From Blautia sp. (GTDB lineage Bacteria > Bacillota > Clostridia > Lachnospirales > Lachnospiraceae): DNA of 22,452 nucleotides. The translations under genes were made by a program, and so were the position numbers. Positions within the stretch are counted from its first letter, which is position 1. Each line of letters starts with the position of its first letter. Positions 11,019-20,356 of this stretch are shown one piece after another. The stretch spans positions 1 through 22,452 of the forward strand of contig JAFOJB010000365.1 in NCBI GenBank assembly GCA_017420455.1, given 5' to 3'. The notes beneath the pieces are model-generated. The model did no database searches. It was not told where the DNA came from and saw nothing but the letters and a program-made list of their open reading frames with translations.

Positions 11019-11030
11019 ACTCTCCGGGAT

Positions 11031-11134
11031 ACGGATAAGAGGAGGATTTTGCTGCCGGCCGTGGTCCGGCCGGCTCTGCAAAGCCCCCATCCGGCAATTA
11101 TTGTATGTCAGTATATTCTTACGAATAAGAGGAG
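11031..11134 (+). promoter_or_regulatory. Leader element of nrdD (copy 1 of a repeated leader)
   Basis: From 11041 to 11134 this leader aligns with 18746-18838, in front of a different gene. The last 28 nt, ending in the ribosome binding site AGAGGAG, are identical, and the 70 nt from 11065 differ at about nine places. A hairpin is formed by GCCGGCC (11054-11060) and GGCCGGC (11068-11074) with a 7-nt loop. The 20 nt at 11031-11050 also resemble the 3' end of the other copy (18826-18845) with one substitution and one insertion, as if a second partial copy lay in tandem. I recognise no known riboswitch core and no NrdR-type box. Confidence 0.6.
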
Positions 11135-11141
11135 CAGTGAT

Positions 11142-13283
11142 ATGTCCGAACTGTATGTGATAAAAAAGGACGGAACCCGGGAGGAGTTCCGGCCGGAGAA
11201 GATTCTCACCGCGGTGAACAAATCCGCGGCCAGAATCCTTTACACCTTTACGGAAGAGGAAAAGGAGTTCATCTGCCGCTTTGCCAGGGAGCGGGCTTCT
11301 TCCCTGGGAAAGAGCGGGATCCGGATCCAGGAGATGCACAACATTGTGGAAGGAGCGCTGGAGCAGGTGAATCCGGCTGTGGCCAAGAGCTACCGGGACT
11401 ACCGGAACTATAAGCAGGATTTCATCCACATGATGGACGATGTATACACCAAAAGCCAGACGATCCGCTATATCGGGGATAAGAGCAACGCCAACACGGA
11501 CAGCGCTCTGGTAGCCACCAAACGGAGCCTGATCTTTAACGAGCTGAACAAGGAGCTTTACCGGAAATTCTTCATGAACCGGAATGAACTGCAGGCCTGC
11601 AAGGACGGTTACATCTATATTCACGACCAGTCCGCCAGGCTGGATACCATGAACTGCTGTCTTTTTGATGTGGCGAACGTTCTTTCCGGCGGCTTTGAGA
11701 TGGGAAATGTCTGGTATAACGAGCCAAAATCCCTGGATACCGCCTTCGATGTCATGGGAGACATCATCCTGAGCACGGCAGCCCAGCAGTACGGCGGTTT
11801 TACGGTGCCGGAGGTGGACAAGATCCTGGCGCCCTACGCGAAGAAAAGCTACGACAGGTACATCCGGGAATTCATGAAATATACGGACGACAGCCTGAAG
11901 GGCCGGGAGGAAAAGGCGATCGTGTACGCCCTGGACAAGGTAAAACGGGAGTATGACCAGGGCTGGCAGGGAATCGAATATAAGCTGAATACCGTAGGCT
12001 CTTCCCGGGGAGATTATCCCTTTGTCACCGTCACCATGGGACTCGGCACAGGACAGTTCGAGAAAATGTGCAATCTTTCCCTGCTGAAGGTACACCAGGG
12101 AGGGCAGGGGAAGGAAGGCCATAAAAAGCCGGTCCTGTTCCCGAAGATCGTCTTCCTTTATGACGAAAACATCCATGGAAAGGGAAAATGCTGCGAGGAT
12201 GTATTTGAGGCGGGAGTGGACTGCTCCTCCAGGACCATGTATCCGGACTGGCTTTCCCTCACCGGAGAAGGCTATATTGCCAGTATGTACAAAAAATACG
12301 GGAAGGTGATCAGCCCCATGGGCTGCAGGGCTTTTCTGAGCCCCTGGTACGAACGGGGAGGTATGGAGCCGGCAGATGAGAAGGATGTTCCGGTGTTTGT
12401 AGGAAGGTTCAACATCGGCGCCGTAAGCCTCCATCTTCCCATGATCCTGGCAAAGGCAAGGTCCGAAAGCAGAGATTTCTACGAGGTGCTGGATTTCTAT
12501 CTGGAGATGATCCGTTCCCTTCATATCAGGACCTACGAATACCTGGCCCAGATGCGGGCTTCCACGAACCCTCTGGCTTACTGCGAGGGAGGCTTCTATG
12601 GCGGGAATCTCCAGCCTCATGAGAAGATCGGCAGGCTCCTTCGGCCGGCTACGGCTTCCTTCGGCATTACGGCTCTGAATGAGCTGCAGGAGCTGTACAA
12701 CGGAAAGTCCATTGCGGAGGATGGGCAGTTTGCCCTGGAGGTGCTGCAGTATATCAATAAGAAGATCGCGCAGTACAAAAAAGAGGACGGCCATCTTTAT
12801 GCGATCTACGGAACGCCGGCGGAGAGCCTTTGCGGTCTGCAGGTGGAACAGTTCCGCAGAATGTACGGAATCGTCGCAAAGGTTTCCGACCGCCCTTATG
12901 TGAGCAACAGCTTCCACTGCCATGTGACAGAGGATATTACTCCCATTGAAAAACAGGATCTGGAGGGAAGGTTCTGGGAATTGTGCAACGGCGGGAAGAT
13001 CCAGTATGTGCGATATCCCATCAGCTACAACAAGGAAGCGGTGAGGACACTGATCAGGCGCGCCATGAAGCTGGGATACTATGAAGGAGTGAATCTTTCT
13101 CTGGCCTATTGCGATGACTGCGGTCACGAAGAGCTGGAAATGGACGTTTGCCCGGTGTGCGGCTCAAGGAATCTGACCAAGATCGACCGTATGAACGGGT
13201 ATCTTTCCTATTCGAGAGTCCATGGCGACACCAGGCTCAACGATGCCAAGATGGCAGAGATCGCGGAGAGAAAATCCATGTAG
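11142..13283 (+). CDS. nrdD: Anaerobic (class III) ribonucleoside-triphosphate reductase
   Basis: NrdD reduces ribonucleoside triphosphates to deoxyribonucleotides under anoxic conditions, using a glycyl radical installed by the radical-SAM activase NrdG. The protein has 713 residues. Domains in order: an N-terminal ATP-cone (about 3-95, VIKKDGTREEFRPEKI), the catalytic barrel with the cysteine pair Cys172/Cys173 in DTMNCCLFD, and a C-terminal zinc site (Cys657, Cys660, Cys670, Cys673) followed by the glycyl radical segment RMNGYL with Gly686. The ATG at 11142 has AGAGGAG 7 bases upstream; the frame is open further upstream only by chance. No nrdG lies beside it. The leader is repeated elsewhere in the window. 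The next gene starts 28 bases after the stop codon. Confidence 0.96.
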   Translation: MSELYVIKKDGTREEFRPEKILTAVNKSAARILYTFTEEEKEFICRFARERASSLGKSGIRIQEMHNIVEGALEQVNPAVAKSYRDYRNYKQDFIHMMDDVYTKSQTIRYIGDKSNANTDSALVATKRSLIFNELNKELYRKFFMNRNELQACKDGYIYIHDQSARLDTMNCCLFDVANVLSGGFEMGNVWYNEPKSLDTAFDVMGDIILSTAAQQYGGFTVPEVDKILAPYAKKSYDRYIREFMKYTDDSLKGREEKAIVYALDKVKREYDQGWQGIEYKLNTVGSSRGDYPFVTVTMGLGTGQFEKMCNLSLLKVHQGGQGKEGHKKPVLFPKIVFLYDENIHGKGKCCEDVFEAGVDCSSRTMYPDWLSLTGEGYIASMYKKYGKVISPMGCRAFLSPWYERGGMEPADEKDVPVFVGRFNIGAVSLHLPMILAKARSESRDFYEVLDFYLEMIRSLHIRTYEYLAQMRASTNPLAYCEGGFYGGNLQPHEKIGRLLRPATASFGITALNELQELYNGKSIAEDGQFALEVLQYINKKIAQYKKEDGHLYAIYGTPAESLCGLQVEQFRRMYGIVAKVSDRPYVSNSFHCHVTEDITPIEKQDLEGRFWELCNGGKIQYVRYPISYNKEAVRTLIRRAMKLGYYEGVNLSLAYCDDCGHEELEMDVCPVCGSRNLTKIDRMNGYLSYSRVHGDTRLNDAKMAEIAERKSM

Positions 13284-13311
13284 TTCAGAGGAGAAAAGGA
13301 AGGGAGAATTA

Positions 13312-14880
13312 ATGAAGAAAGGCAATTATGGAATATGCAGGGCTTTGGCGCTTTGCATCCTCCTGCTGGCTGTCCTTTTCGCGCTGCCGGCAGCTGCAGC
13401 GCAGACCATTCCGATGGAGGGACCTGCGGATATCACCTTAAAGATCGGCGAAACAAAGGCTTTGGGGGTTACCACCTCTGTAGAAGGCGCTCATTTTACC
13501 TATTCGTTATCGGATGCCTCCGTTGCCACGGTGGATGAAGAAGGAAATATCACCGGCCTTTTTGCCGGCGAAGCGAATCTGATGGTGAAAGCGGACAGAA
13601 GCGGATACTCGGATACGCTGAAGCTGATCAGGGTCAGCGTCAGCAGAGGAGACCAGGTCATAGAGGCAGAGGACAGGATCAGCCTGTTTGTAGGAGACAC
13701 TGCAGGCATCGGCTCCAAAGCGAAAACTACGATGAGCTATACCTCCTCCGATCCCTCTGTGATAACGGTGGATGACGCAGGAAACCTGGAAGCGGTTGCA
13801 AAAGGCCAGGCAGTGATCACCATCGACGCAAAGGGAACCTCAAAATTCAATCCTGCCCACAAGGAAGTACAGGTTGAAGTAAACAGGAGAAAGCAGCAGA
13901 TTCTGACCGGCAGCCTTGCGCTTCAGGTGGGGGAAACGGGAAACCTGAGAGTAAAAACCAGAACCTCCAGGACCTACAGCTCGTCCGACGAATCAGTAGC
14001 CAGAGTTTCCGGGGACGGGGATGTGACAGGATACCGGGAAGGCACCGCTGTGATCACCATAAAAGCGAAATCAACCTCCATCTTTGACAGCGCCGAAACG
14101 CAGGCTTTGGTCACAGTCTCTTCTAAAGGACAGAAGATCGACGCGGAAGATATGCGCATCGGTATCGATGAGACGGTTCCTCTGAATGTGGTGTCCAGCA
14201 CCTCCAGAAGCTATACCTCTTCTGATCCGGAGATTGTCCAGGTGGATGAAAAGGGAAATGTGACAGGAGCTGCCCTGGGGAAGGCCTATATCATTATTAA
14301 GGCAAAGGGGACGACAAAATACAACAGCGCCTCGACAATCTGCGAGATCACCGTAGTGAAGAGGACCCAGAACCTGACTCTCCAGGATTTCGAGATGACC
14401 GTGGGAGAAGAGAAGGGTCTCTCTGTAAAAGCAAATACCTCGCTGACATTCGTTTCCTCGGATGAAAATATCGTGTCTGTGGATAAGAACGGGACTGTGA
14501 CGGGGCTTTCTCCCGGTACTGCCAGGATTTCCGTGACCGCCAGGGAGACATCCCGGTTTGAGCGTGCCGAGACAGACGCGATGGTAACGGTAAAGAGAGA
14601 AAGCCAGACGATCAAAGGAAAGAATCTGGAGCTTTTCGAAGGAGATTCTGCTGTTCTGGATGTTTCTACGGCTACTTCCAGGACCTATACTTCTTCCGAC
14701 CCGTCCATTGCCACTGTCAGTGAAGATGGGGTGGTGACTGCAGTATCCAGGGGAACTGCCATTATTACGGTTCAGGCGATGGAAACCAGACGGTACGAAG
14801 GCGCGGAGGGATCTTTTACAGTGACGGTAACGGGGTTTGAGATCATTCCCTCCGGAAGTCAGAGGTCTGTATTTGCCTGA
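13312..14880 (+). CDS. Secreted protein of six tandem Ig-like (Big_2-type) domains
   Basis: This exported 522-residue protein has a signal peptide (1-30, cut after AAAA) and six consecutive domains of about 75-80 residues each (roughly 31-112, 113-190, 191-268, 269-346, 347-423, 424-505). Each repeats the pattern: hydrophobic strand, GE or GD turn, TSRTYTSSDPSIATV, DEEGNVTG, GTAIITIKAKGT. This is the bacterial Ig-like fold used as spacer or adhesion module on cell surfaces. There is no LPXTG sorting motif, no transmembrane anchor and no catalytic domain, so it is probably released or wall-bound without a covalent anchor. GGGAG stands just before the ATG at 13312. It follows nrdD by 28 bp and may ride on its transcript. 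The function is unknown. Confidence 0.88.
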   Translation: MKKGNYGICRALALCILLLAVLFALPAAAAQTIPMEGPADITLKIGETKALGVTTSVEGAHFTYSLSDASVATVDEEGNITGLFAGEANLMVKADRSGYSDTLKLIRVSVSRGDQVIEAEDRISLFVGDTAGIGSKAKTTMSYTSSDPSVITVDDAGNLEAVAKGQAVITIDAKGTSKFNPAHKEVQVEVNRRKQQILTGSLALQVGETGNLRVKTRTSRTYSSSDESVARVSGDGDVTGYREGTAVITIKAKSTSIFDSAETQALVTVSSKGQKIDAEDMRIGIDETVPLNVVSSTSRSYTSSDPEIVQVDEKGNVTGAALGKAYIIIKAKGTTKYNSASTICEITVVKRTQNLTLQDFEMTVGEEKGLSVKANTSLTFVSSDENIVSVDKNGTVTGLSPGTARISVTARETSRFERAETDAMVTVKRESQTIKGKNLELFEGDSAVLDVSTATSRTYTSSDPSIATVSEDGVVTAVSRGTAIITVQAMETRRYEGAEGSFTVTVTGFEIIPSGSQRSVFA

Positions 14881-16081: not shown

Positions 16082-16103
16082 GCTCCTGAAAAAGCCGGAA
16101 AAA

Positions 16104-16154
16104 GTACCCTTCCTGAACCTGCGCGCTTTCGCAGGCCGGAAGGGTACGTTTTTT
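16104..16154. terminator. Bidirectional terminator
   Basis: GTACCCTTCC (16104-16113) pairs perfectly with GGAAGGGTAC (16138-16147), and CCTGCG/CGCAGG extends the stem inside. GTTTTTT follows on the plus strand and CTTTTTCC on the minus strand. It separates the aminotransferase gene from the convergent secreted-protein gene. Confidence 0.9.
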
Positions 16155-16158
16155 ATGC

Positions 16159-17307
16159 TTATTTTGAGAGACGCAGGCTCTTTGGGGTGCTCCACTCGGA
16201 ATAATATTTTTTTCCGCCGACGGACTTGTAGGTGCGGATCCTCACATAGATCCGGAGCCATTTCGTCAGATTCTTCCTGGTGCAGGTCGTGGTATTCTGA
16301 TTGCTGACGGTGATGCTTCTGGCGCCGCTGAAATTGGGCAGATAGCTGACGCTGATCTGATAGCCGGTGACGCCCTCGGTCTTTCGCCAGCGTACCAGAA
16401 GGGAACCGGGTTCCGGATTGGTGAGACTGGAGATGGAGGTGCTTTTTGGCAGGACGGTAATGGTAAAGGTGGCTTTGGCGGCCTTATAGTCCCTGGTGGC
16501 CTTTGCAGTGGCAGTGACCGTTGCCTTTCCTACGCCCTTAATGGTGACCTTTCCGTTTTTGGCCACCTTTACGACAGAGGTGCTGCTGCAGGAATAAGTA
16601 CAGCTGGAGCCTTTGCTGCCTTCTACGATCTTCGCCTTCAGCTGGAAGGATGCACCGCCCATTTTCTTTTCCAGGTCCGGTGCTTCGATCTTCTGTTCTC
16701 CCTTTGTGATGTTGTAGCTTTTGGTTGTTGTTCCGGAATAGCTGCCCTTCAGACGGATGGTGACCTTGTAGGTACCGACCTTGCTGCAGGAGGCAGGATA
16801 AGAGAGGGTATACATGGAAGCATCCAGCTTTTTGCCTTTGGCGTCTTTGACCGTGACCTCCGGCTTCTGGTTTTTGCCGTTGCAGGGAAAGCTGGTTCTG
16901 GAAAGAACGATGGTCTTTACGCGGGAGATCACCTTTTTGTTTTTTTCGTCTTTGCAGATTCTGCACACATCAGAGATGCTGCCGTCCTTCGTCAGGGTCG
17001 CCGGGACGATCTTCTGCTGGTATTCATGAGTATGTGCCTTGGCAGAGCTTTCTTTGGCCGCCCCGCTCTTCCCGCCGGTATCCTTCGCAGTTCCCTTTGC
17101 GGTGCTCTTTGCGGTGCTCTTTGCAGTCCCTTTTGTGGTACCCTTTGCGCTTTCCTTTGCAGCATCCTTCGCGGTGCTCTTTGTGGTTTCCTTTGCATTC
17201 TCCGCGGGTTTTGAAGCTGCCATCTGCCGGGTGGCTGCGCCTGCCGGAAGGACAAACAGGAGAGCGGCCAGAAGCATGATGCACAGGCTGCGTTTTTTCT
17301 GTTTCAT
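16159..17307 (-). CDS. Secreted Lys-repeat, Ig-like and fibronectin III-like protein
   Basis: This exported 382-residue protein has no visible enzyme domain. Residues 1-24 are a signal peptide (AGA cut site). Residues 39-78 are a low-complexity tract in which Lys stands at every fourth position (39, 43, 47 and so on to 75), with Thr, Ser, Ala and Gly between. Residues 92-200 are a clostridial Ig-like module opening HTHEYQQK and holding a CRIC pair. Residues about 205-290 are a second Ig-like module related to the repeats of the 13312 gene (GEQKIEAPDL, VVKVAKNGKVTIKGVGKATV). Residues about 293-382 resemble fibronectin type III (SLLVRWRKTEGVTGYQISVS, YYSEWSTPKSL). AGGAGG precedes the ATG. A polycationic tract next to wall modules suggests binding to teichoic acids or other anionic polymers (inference). 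Confidence 0.87.
   Translation of the reverse strand: MKQKKRSLCIMLLAALLFVLPAGAATRQMAASKPAENAKETTKSTAKDAAKESAKGTTKGTAKSTAKSTAKGTAKDTGGKSGAAKESSAKAHTHEYQQKIVPATLTKDGSISDVCRICKDEKNKKVISRVKTIVLSRTSFPCNGKNQKPEVTVKDAKGKKLDASMYTLSYPASCSKVGTYKVTIRLKGSYSGTTTKSYNITKGEQKIEAPDLEKKMGGASFQLKAKIVEGSKGSSCTYSCSSTSVVKVAKNGKVTIKGVGKATVTATAKATRDYKAAKATFTITVLPKSTSISSLTNPEPGSLLVRWRKTEGVTGYQISVSYLPNFSGARSITVSNQNTTTCTRKNLTKWLRIYVRIRTYKSVGGKKYYSEWSTPKSLRLSK
17074..17193 (-). repeat. 12-bp tandem repeat encoding Lys every fourth residue
   Basis: Ten degenerate 12-bp units encode tetrapeptides of K-S/G/D/E-T/A-A/T type (residues 39-78 of the secreted protein). The DNA is a GC-rich minisatellite, so its copy number may vary between strains. 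Confidence 0.8.
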
Positions 17308-18740: not shown

Positions 18741-18838
18741 AGGGAGGCGGATCCTGGTTTCGGCTCTGTTCCGGCCGACTTTGCAAAACCGCCGTCCGAC
18801 AACATTGTAAGTCAGTATATTCTTACGAATAAGAGGAG
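18741..18838 (+). promoter_or_regulatory. Leader element of the secreted protein gene (copy 2)
   Basis: This element is homologous to the nrdD leader (11041-11134). Its hairpin is TCGGCT (18760-18765) with GGCCGA (18773-18778) and a 7-nt loop. Compared with nrdD, one pair has changed from C-G to T-A on both sides and the closing pair from C-G to T-G. GGCGG (18746-18750) can also pair with CCGCC (18789-18793). TTGTAAG (18805-18811) can pair with CTTACGA, which would place a stem directly before AGAGGAG (18832-18838). Confidence 0.6.
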
Positions 18839-18847
18839 ATTTTCCAG

Positions 18848-20356
18848 ATGAATAACAGAAAAAGGCTTTTGTGTATTTTCTTATCCGGTATGCTGTCCGT
18901 CTCCTGTCTTACTGCAGGTGCAGAGGAGAATAAAGGAAAACGCGAATTAGGAGATATTTTCAGCGCCTTGTCCGCCCGGAACAGAGAACTGGCAGCAGCG
19001 GAATCAGATACAGTGCCGGAGGAATCAGATACAACGCCGGAAAAATCAGATACAGCGCCTGAGGAATCAGATACAGTGCAGGAGGAAGGGGGAAGCGGGG
19101 AGACAAAGAAGGGATCTCCTTTTGAATCCCTGTTTTCGTTTGAGGATGCCAAAAATATCGACATCCTGAATCCGGTGAAGAAGAAACCCTCTCCGGCAGA
19201 AGAAGATCAGGGAGAGAATGGCAGAGCTTCCGAAGAAAGCAAGGGTCAGTCCGATGGGACAGACGGCGGAGCGGGCCAGACAGCCGCAGCAGACAGCGAA
19301 GGCCCCAAGGCAGGAGAAGCCGCGGGAAGTGAAGGCTCCAAGGCAGGAGAAGCCGGAGGAAGTGAAAGCCCGGAGGCAGGAGAAGCCGGGAAGAGTGAAG
19401 GTCCGGAGGCAGGAGAAGCCGTGGGCGTCGAAGGCCCGAAAACCGGAGAAGCCGCGAGCGGCGAAGAACCGAAGGCAGGGGATGCCGGGAACGGCGAAAC
19501 ACCGTCTGCGGGAACCGATACCTCTGCGGTTCAGGACATGACGACGGTTTCCGGGGAGGCAGAGTACTATTTCCGGAAAAACAGCATGGATGTCTTTCTC
19601 CGGGACCACACCTCTCTTTCGGCATCGGCCGCCTATTACCTGAACGGAAGGATGCTCAGCTATTCTACCAGATACTACGCGGGAAAGGACATTCTTTCCT
19701 ATGAAAGCAGCGATGGGGACATCCTGGTGGTCACGCCGGGGGACATCTACGGATTTGACGGCGCGGCAAAAACCCCGTACCGGGACGTTTTCCTGGACGA
19801 TCAGTCCAGAGAAAAAGAGAGCGCCTTCTGGTATCAGCTTTACGATCCCTCCCGGGAGGCGGAGATCCTGGAGATTTCCAAAAAGGGTTCGGAAGTCGTC
19901 ATCACCCAGAGAAAAACAGACAGAGCAGGAGCCGGAATGATCGAGAGCGCCTTCTTCCCGTACATGGGGGAGACGGACGCCTGGGTGGAGGTACACCATT
20001 TTTCCATGGAGACCGGGCTTCGCACCTCTACAGAATGCTATATCGAAAAGGAAGACGGAGAGAGATCCCTGGCGGTGGATACTGTTTTCAGCGCAGACGC
20101 GGCGGAAGCCTTTAAACCGCCGAAAAGCCTGACAGAACGTCTTAACGCGCCGGACGGCAGGTCTCTTCACATCCTTCTGAATCCTCAGACGGAGGAAGAA
20201 GCCTGGATCAGTTCCGAGGTGGGAACAGGGTGTTATTTCAATATCTTTTACACCGACGAGTACACAGAGCTGTATACGGATGTCTCCTGCAGAAATGCAG
20301 CCGAAGCTTTCGCCAACAAAGAAGGAGATGTGACGCTGTTCGGCAGAAAGGCATAA
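18848..20356 (+). CDS. Secreted protein with acidic repeats and a C-terminal domain
   Basis: This exported 502-residue protein has a function I do not recognise. Residues 1-25 are a signal peptide (AGA before EE); Cys20 is preceded by SVS, a poor lipobox. Residues 52-79 are four heptads of ESDTVPE type. Residues 151-222 are about six and a half copies of an 11-residue unit EGPKAGEAAGS, strongly acidic and flexible. Residues about 229-502 form a folded, strand-rich domain (SGEAEYYFRKNSMDVFL, DILVVTPGDIYGFDG, WVEVHHFSMETGLRTSTECYIE). It faintly recalls lipoprotein carrier (LolA/RseB-like) folds, but that is only an impression. AGAGGAG precedes the ATG. murE starts 35 bp after the stop, probably in the same transcript. 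Confidence 0.82.
   Translation: MNNRKRLLCIFLSGMLSVSCLTAGAEENKGKRELGDIFSALSARNRELAAAESDTVPEESDTTPEKSDTAPEESDTVQEEGGSGETKKGSPFESLFSFEDAKNIDILNPVKKKPSPAEEDQGENGRASEESKGQSDGTDGGAGQTAAADSEGPKAGEAAGSEGSKAGEAGGSESPEAGEAGKSEGPEAGEAVGVEGPKTGEAASGEEPKAGDAGNGETPSAGTDTSAVQDMTTVSGEAEYYFRKNSMDVFLRDHTSLSASAAYYLNGRMLSYSTRYYAGKDILSYESSDGDILVVTPGDIYGFDGAAKTPYRDVFLDDQSREKESAFWYQLYDPSREAEILEISKKGSEVVITQRKTDRAGAGMIESAFFPYMGETDAWVEVHHFSMETGLRTSTECYIEKEDGERSLAVDTVFSADAAEAFKPPKSLTERLNAPDGRSLHILLNPQTEEEAWISSEVGTGCYFNIFYTDEYTELYTDVSCRNAAEAFANKEGDVTLFGRKA
18998..19083 (+). repeat. 21-bp tandem repeat, four copies
   Basis: Four 21-bp units of GAATCAGATACAGTGCCGGAG type encode ESDTVPE, ESDTTPE, KSDTAPE and ESDTVQE. They lie in frame near the 5' end of the secreted-protein gene. 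Confidence 0.8.
19298..19513 (+). repeat. 33-bp tandem repeat, about six and a half copies
   Basis: 33-bp units built on GGCAGGAGAAGCCG encode an 11-residue repeat of EGPKAGEAAGS type (residues 151-222 of the secreted protein). The copies have diverged most at the 3' end. Confidence 0.8.

Follow-up and report, generated by a model that had tools for sequence, protein, structure and literature searches.

A putative mobile repeat at Shine-Dalgarno sequences in Blautia and other Lachnospiraceae

Described repeats and leaders, and the element in the window

REP/RAYT elements and the IS200/IS605-derived PATEs have a short fixed motif at the 5' edge and hairpins near their ends, and they insert without target duplication. 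Rickettsia palindromic elements (RPEs) are also hairpin-forming, and we know of no mobiliser for them. RPEs are described as small repeats of approximately 150 bp which insert in frame into protein-coding genes (PMC10969869). BOX, RUP, SPRITE and MITEs occur in many copies, are structured if transcribed and are thought to be non-autonomous, and boxC is able to supply a start codon (PMC3049150). Targeting of the Shine-Dalgarno is not described for BOX, RUP, SPRITE, MITEs or RPEs in the accessible parts of these two papers (PMC3049150; PMC10969869). A literature search, with most subscription papers outside its coverage, returned no report of a repeat inserted at the Shine-Dalgarno in Lachnospiraceae.

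The leader of nrdD studied here very probably belongs to a mobile repeat, lineage-specific and non-autonomous, whose copies target ribosome-binding sites and take their place, and our best reading is that this family of miniature mobile elements is new. Like RPEs, the element occurs in frame within genes (of the relatives G036 and RGIG2469) and its hairpins (P1/P2 and P3) covary; unlike them it is 90-98 nt long across the family, is found in Lachnospiraceae and has as its main niche the Shine-Dalgarno which it appears to replace. It is multicopy and structured, as are the pneumococcal BOX, RUP and SPRITE repeats and MITEs, but differs from MITEs in having neither terminal inverted repeats nor a target-site duplication, and stands at the Shine-Dalgarno in the orientation of the gene, whereas BOX, RUP and SPRITE are over-represented between convergent genes. 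With REP/RAYT and PATE elements it shares a position 3' of a fixed short motif, hairpins close to the ends and the lack of duplication (a GGA flank at 4 of 6 sites known in the empty state). It is set apart from them by its right end, AGAGGAG, which is placed as a ribosome-binding site, and the loci searched yielded no cognate transposase whose ends match. Riboswitches and protein-binding leaders are similar in being structured 5' leaders that reach up to the ribosome-binding site and have alternative helices, but the element occurs in lineage-specific bursts, ahead of unrelated genes and also within coding regions, and has no Rfam match.

Two copies are present in the window, the whole 22,452-nt stretch of Blautia sp. 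DNA that was analysed. Copy 1 (11041..11134, +) lies directly 5' of nrdD (11142..13283, +; matches to the NRDD and ATP-cone domains). Copy 2 (18746..18838, +) precedes a 502-aa ORF (18848..20356, +). This ORF has acidic repeats, a stretch of hydrophobic residues at the N-terminus and no Pfam match; that the N-terminus is signal-like was judged by eye only. A sequence-only reading of this DNA had proposed that the two leaders are homologous, and this is borne out by alignment, BLAST and covariance searches with two models, R1 and R2. The 3'-terminal 28 nt (11107-11134 and 18811-18838) are the same in both copies, 9 differences fall between 11065 and 11134 (70 nt), as had been claimed, and there are 18 across all 94 nt. 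The changes reported in paired positions are also present: the C and G at 11055 and 11073 are T and A at 18760 and 18778, and the C-G pair 11060/11068 is a T-G wobble in copy 2. The earlier reading was silent on 11054, a G which is T at 18759 and there faces C18779, so that the outermost P2 pair is lost in copy 2. The spacer from element end to ATG is 7 nt for nrdD (ATG 11142) and 9 nt for copy 2 (ATG 18848).

The resemblance is not accidental. Searched with cmsearch and R2, the two copies in the window give E-values of 1.2e-20 and 1e-19 (next best 0.95), which are biased upward in significance because the 60 training copies of R2 include both. Model-independent BLAST of copy 1 against its own genome finds 42 places (E<=1), one of which is copy 2 (E 4.1e-18). 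Elsewhere in the window, an ORF at 13222-14880 overlaps the end of nrdD and has six matched Big_2 immunoglobulin-like stretches, and a match to the Rfam family rnk_leader at 16095-16211 (-) is below threshold (30.7 bits, gathering 50) and is probably due to chance.

Structure of the element and its placement before genes

The consensus runs from GACWGATTYTG through P2, CARAATCGTCATCCG, a variable part and P3 to AGAGGAG, and its two ends form no terminal inverted repeat. In copy 1, P1 (11045-11051 with 11079-11085) encloses P2 (11054-11060 with 11068-11074), the whole spanning 11045..11085 (+) according to alignment A3 and pair counts, with window positions mapped by hand. P1, the outer stem counted for the family, is distinct from the GGAT/ATCC pairing described previously. 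The 3' hairpin P3 (11114..11127, +; 11114-11118 with 11123-11127), which also rests on pair counts, stands immediately 5' of AGAGGAG (11128..11134, +), the 3' end of the element and, by its spacing from the ATG, positioned as the nrdD Shine-Dalgarno. Comparison of subfamilies and pair counts point to an alternative helix B (11049..11097, +; 11049-11054 with 11092-11097), which joins the 5' arm to the sequence following CATCCG and is kept in subfamilies by different letters, not in every copy. Helix B competes with P2 and might engage the remainder of P1 in a pseudoknot.

Across 60 sequences, 83.7% of cells are paired in P1, P2 and P3 together, against 69.5% in shuffled and 28-47% in slid versions, and the covariation score for P1-P3 is 0.339 as compared with 0.123 in shuffles; none of 500 shuffles was equal or higher in covariation score or cells paired. 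For helix B 75.0% of cells are paired, against 68.0% in shuffles, and here too none of 500 shuffles reached the observed covariation score or share of paired cells. On weaker measures, pairs changed on both sides were as high in 45 of 500 shuffles for P1-P3 and in 461 of 500 for helix B, and further pair types in 17 and 201 of 500 respectively, so that two of five covariation measures are not clearly above shuffles. The covariation partly reflects subfamilies, so that alignment cells are not independent events. Support from covariation appeared only after subfamilies from other genomes had been added: the model R1, built from the genome's own copies only, was set aside as evidence of covariation, since RNAalifold gave 7 pairs with a covariation term of almost nil. 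A conserved reading frame was also rejected as a general feature, as by eye it is open in the consensus of the window's genome, G036 and RGIG2469 and closed in the variants of G364 and G292.

In the window's own genome (G000, 77.9% complete), where 150 of 1299 candidates were scored, R1 gives at least 111 matches at E<=1, and 101 of these were examined (the 9 weakest were dropped and 1 was not fetched). A start codon opening an ORF that has 50 or more codons, or one running off the contig, lies 4-12 nt 3' of the element in 81 of these 101, one placement depending on a TTG within a following copy, and in 73 of 87 in a stricter set (E<=0.001). The same placement was seen at 788 of 5050 random places (16%) and at 164 of 686 other AGGAG sites (24%). 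Among the 20 exceptions, at least 3 are the upstream copy of a tandem pair. Copies usually terminate in AGAGGAG. The genes that follow are mutually unrelated (YebC, PyrE, iPGM, YbaB, PFL, a response regulator, permeases and an SSB-like protein; 20 of 34 candidate proteins scanned). Of the 16 downstream proteins with a family match, 11 have a match that begins no more than 20 residues after the chosen start codon, which supports these starts. At one locus (G000:C509:2341-2431; L008, L047) a long inverted repeat (GACCGAGTCATGGATCGC...GCGATCCATGACTCG) stands in place of the AGGAG end, ahead of the next AGGAG, and resembles a second element or a terminator within the Shine-Dalgarno.

The sequence-only reading had taken the leader for a translational switch or protein-binding leader. 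A true regulatory leader of this kind (a riboswitch or protein-binding RNA) would steer a large regulon at the level of translation, and the constant distance to the start codon, the covarying helices and the mutual exclusion of P2 and helix B are all as expected of one. Part of that reading stands: the element is conserved and structured, ends at the ribosome-binding site, keeps its distance to the start codon in 81 of 101 copies (random placement was not what was found) and covaries; no described class fits, with no Rfam match at the element at E<=5. What is not supported is the switch or regulon joining nucleotide and envelope functions. The two downstream genes are indeed unrelated, and this holds across the 20 of 34 proteins scanned; in place of the supposed link between deoxynucleotide synthesis and an envelope protein there is a dispersed repeat of at least 111 matches that precedes functionally unrelated genes. 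Nor does folding point to sequestration of the Shine-Dalgarno: in a thermodynamic model of 40 copies the mean unpaired probability of the Shine-Dalgarno is 0.37, equal to shuffled controls (0.38), with values for the window copies of 0.42 and 0.43 against 0.21 and 0.20 in their controls. These results are compatible with an effect of the element on translation, which it may have. Against a regulatory leader there are, in addition to the unrelated target genes and the shuffle-like accessibility, the patchy presence, the in-frame copies within coding regions and the empty orthologous sites described below, and we regard it as very improbable. Copy number, the lack of relation among the genes and the empty orthologous sites led us to reject a regulon.

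Distribution in relatives, empty sites and flanks

The family is patchy, with genome-specific subfamilies. R1 was run on relatives with stricter filters and 70 scored candidates per genome. It finds matches in 5 of 61 genomes, or in 4 of 60 once the window's own is left out: 55 in G036, which belongs to the same genus and appears to be Blautia sp. RGIG5147, 4 in G032 and one marginal match each in G006 and G016. G032 gives 16 matches with R2 once more candidates are scored. Across the family Lachnospiraceae, at least 7 of 397 genomes match R2 at E<=0.001, the window's own included (10 candidates scored per genome), and of the six others four are convincing by eye (G421, G413, G292 and G364). 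An exact-pattern scan of named genomes returned 72 stretches; distinct copies number 56 in the goat-gut MAG 'Clostridia bacterium' RGIG2469 (G084), 23 in Blautia sp. RGIG5147 and 1 in Blautia sp. RGIG5706, and one exact pattern found no viral carriers. Diverged subfamilies of the same plan occur in RGIG5147, RGIG2469 and other Lachnospiraceae genera. In G364, of another genus, there are 28 BLAST matches, and a start codon follows 16 of the 18 right ends inspected. A longer variant in this genome has about 36 nt, hairpin-like by eye, separating the left and right parts (L387, L388, L392), and in G036 a second subfamily (GACATATTTTGCCCACGG...) is present alongside the first (L138, L141, L146, L150, L153).

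No copy adjoins nrdD in 24 congener loci with orthologs of this gene; the one R2 match there (E 0.46) lies more than 1 kb from nrdD, and one locus (L239) is almost without upstream DNA. The congener upstream regions (L235-L258) differ in having repeated motifs like ACACCAGATATGG and TAGATATAGTAT, which we take to resemble NrdR boxes; such motifs were not seen in window 11019-11040, where nrdD closely follows another ORF. As the congener upstream regions are not alignable by eye, they provide no empty site for the nrdD copy. Empty sites come instead from the comparison of RGIG2469 with G093, and none is shown for the window's own two copies.

G093 (738 kb of it used) is 80-89% identical to RGIG2469 where compared, and the two differ greatly in copy number, with one R2 match in G093 (150 of 1507 candidates scored) against at least 48 BLAST matches in RGIG2469 (40 of 301 candidates scored). 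One copy is common to both, with flanks 98.5 and 99% identical. Of 10 RGIG2469 sites aligned to G093, 7 are without the element there and 3 are inconclusive. An ordinary Shine-Dalgarno stands ahead of the same start in G093 at 6 of the 7 empty sites, the seventh lying just after a stop codon, and on the filled RGIG2469 side of those 6 a GGA flank is present at 4 and the AGGAG end at 5. At 80-89% identity small flank changes are inseparable from insertion. The 105 regular-expression items in this comparison included chance matches in coding DNA, and all six that were checked because both flanks occur in G093 were chance.

Insertion is usually 3' of (A)GGA and without target duplication. In RGIG2469, GGA forms the 5' flank of 54 of 72 scan items and, under a stricter pattern with chance matches dropped, of 54 of 69; the corresponding figures for G036 are 46 of 68 and 41 of 55. 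The less strict search pattern did not cover those bases. In the window's genome the GGA flank is kept in only 19 of 35 scored copies. Copies with another flank nonetheless mostly end in AGGAG (12 of 15 in RGIG2469, 11 of 14 in G036, 15 of 16 in the window's genome), which argues that no target-site duplication is made. Tandem copies have AGGAG in common, as if the newer copy had entered the Shine-Dalgarno of the older one. Having AGGAG at both edges of copies could also suggest that a leader was duplicated together with genes by ordinary recombination, but the genes downstream are unrelated, flank homology between copies was read only where the flanks held element sequence, and the empty sites in G093 largely contradict it; the probability of this explanation is close to negligible.

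Copies whose orientation could be assessed mostly run with the gene. Among 33 RGIG2469 right ends with a nearby conserved gene, 31 are sense and 2 antisense; the other 49 of 82 right ends are uninformative, as no conserved gene lies within 200 nt. Thirteen of the informative ends were called 'start', of which 3 depend on a TTG in the following tandem copy, so that 10 remain. There are also in-frame copies within coding regions of RGIG2469 and G036: two in FtsK/SpoIIIE, before the alpha domain, and one after the C-terminal domain of BirA, with further inserts in a BadF/HGD-D protein, a permease and a putative glycosyltransferase labelled by eye (no Pfam match). The 30-aa insert of the G036 BadF protein is absent from 11 aligned homologs. 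The preference for gene starts could result from selection after insertion at any GGA.

Routes of spread and meaning for the host genomes

What can be read from the genomes is the copies and where they lie, which orthologous sites are filled in RGIG2469 and empty in G093, what flanks the copies and, on alignment statistics, that P1, P2, P3 and helix B covary. We propose that the element inserts 3' of (A)GGA, often the Shine-Dalgarno of a gene, in the gene's orientation and without duplication, and that its constant 3' end AGAGGAG would then take over the Shine-Dalgarno role at normal spacing. Insertion would be tolerated because translation can continue from the element's own AGGAG, which we infer to be a working Shine-Dalgarno, and harmless landing at such sites would explain the spread. 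Transposition would be enzymatic and act in trans on single-stranded, hairpin-bearing DNA or on an RNA copy.

As a special case of such a mobile repeat, the element may be REP-, MITE- or PATE-like and owe its mobility to a single-strand transposase, namely a Y1 (HUH) enzyme of the IS200/IS605 or RAYT type; we hold this possibility tentatively. The absence of duplication, insertion 3' of a short fixed motif which also ends the element, and subterminal hairpins at both ends without terminal inverted repeats are consistent with this. The two ends of an IS605 element resemble each other, but P2 and P3 are dissimilar. The Y1 matches in G000 and G036 are contig-edge pieces that look like typical IS200 TnpA. 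In the genomes covered by this search (G000, G036 and G032) the Y1 genes and fragments have no element nearby, and a transposase with matching ends was not among them. As element ends were not found at these Y1 loci, the Y1 transposases detected there were set aside as the mobiliser.

Mobility through RNA was considered too. Here reverse transcription of an RNA copy, primed at AGGAG, would write it into the site and give 5'-truncated copies with intact 3' ends. The left end is indeed absent from 29 of 92 RGIG2469 right ends, and 11 of 79 left ends are without a right end, some of them spurious; several G364 copies lack the left end, with abrupt 5' junctions and well-kept right ends, the RNA is able to form a pseudoknot, and reverse transcriptase matches exist in G084 (RGIG2469; 4) and G036 (7). 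The truncated copies are more diverged on average (2.3 against 1.3 mean mismatches in 21 and 58 non-tandem copies; p=0.007), and so truncation is more likely decay of a dispensable 5' part. Truncated copies seen by eye in G364 are without GGA at the 5' junction, and searching G093 for orthologous sites of truncated copies gave one weak alignment. Reverse transcriptase matches are missing in the carriers G000 (77.9% complete) and G032 and in G093, yet occur in G001 (6) and G005 (1), where R1 found no element. No element was found in the Y1 and reverse transcriptase loci tested, which come from incomplete MAGs, and reverse transcriptase was dropped as a candidate mobiliser as the search gave no link to the element. 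We consider the retro-type route unlikely, and it is rather improbable that the family represents a class of RNA-borne elements in which a pseudoknotted RNA of 90-98 nt recognises the Shine-Dalgarno and is copied in via reverse transcription, leaving truncated copies and posing as the ribosome-binding site of the host gene.

The preferred reading, a mobile repeat replacing ribosome-binding sites, carries a caution for the interpretation of leaders: those that are homologous although their genes are unrelated may belong to a transposon family instead of marking a regulon. Since RGIG2469 has undergone a burst and one copy was found in G093, both the mechanism and the fitness effect are directly testable. 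Many mobile elements harm the genes they enter, while this one appears to target a short motif found ahead of most genes in bacteria of this kind and to bring a replacement for it, and dozens to about 100 copies stand ahead of ordinary genes, presumably with little harm. The Shine-Dalgarno would thus be a new insertion niche for selfish DNA, and the spread of such an element would naturally re-tune translation initiation across the genome.
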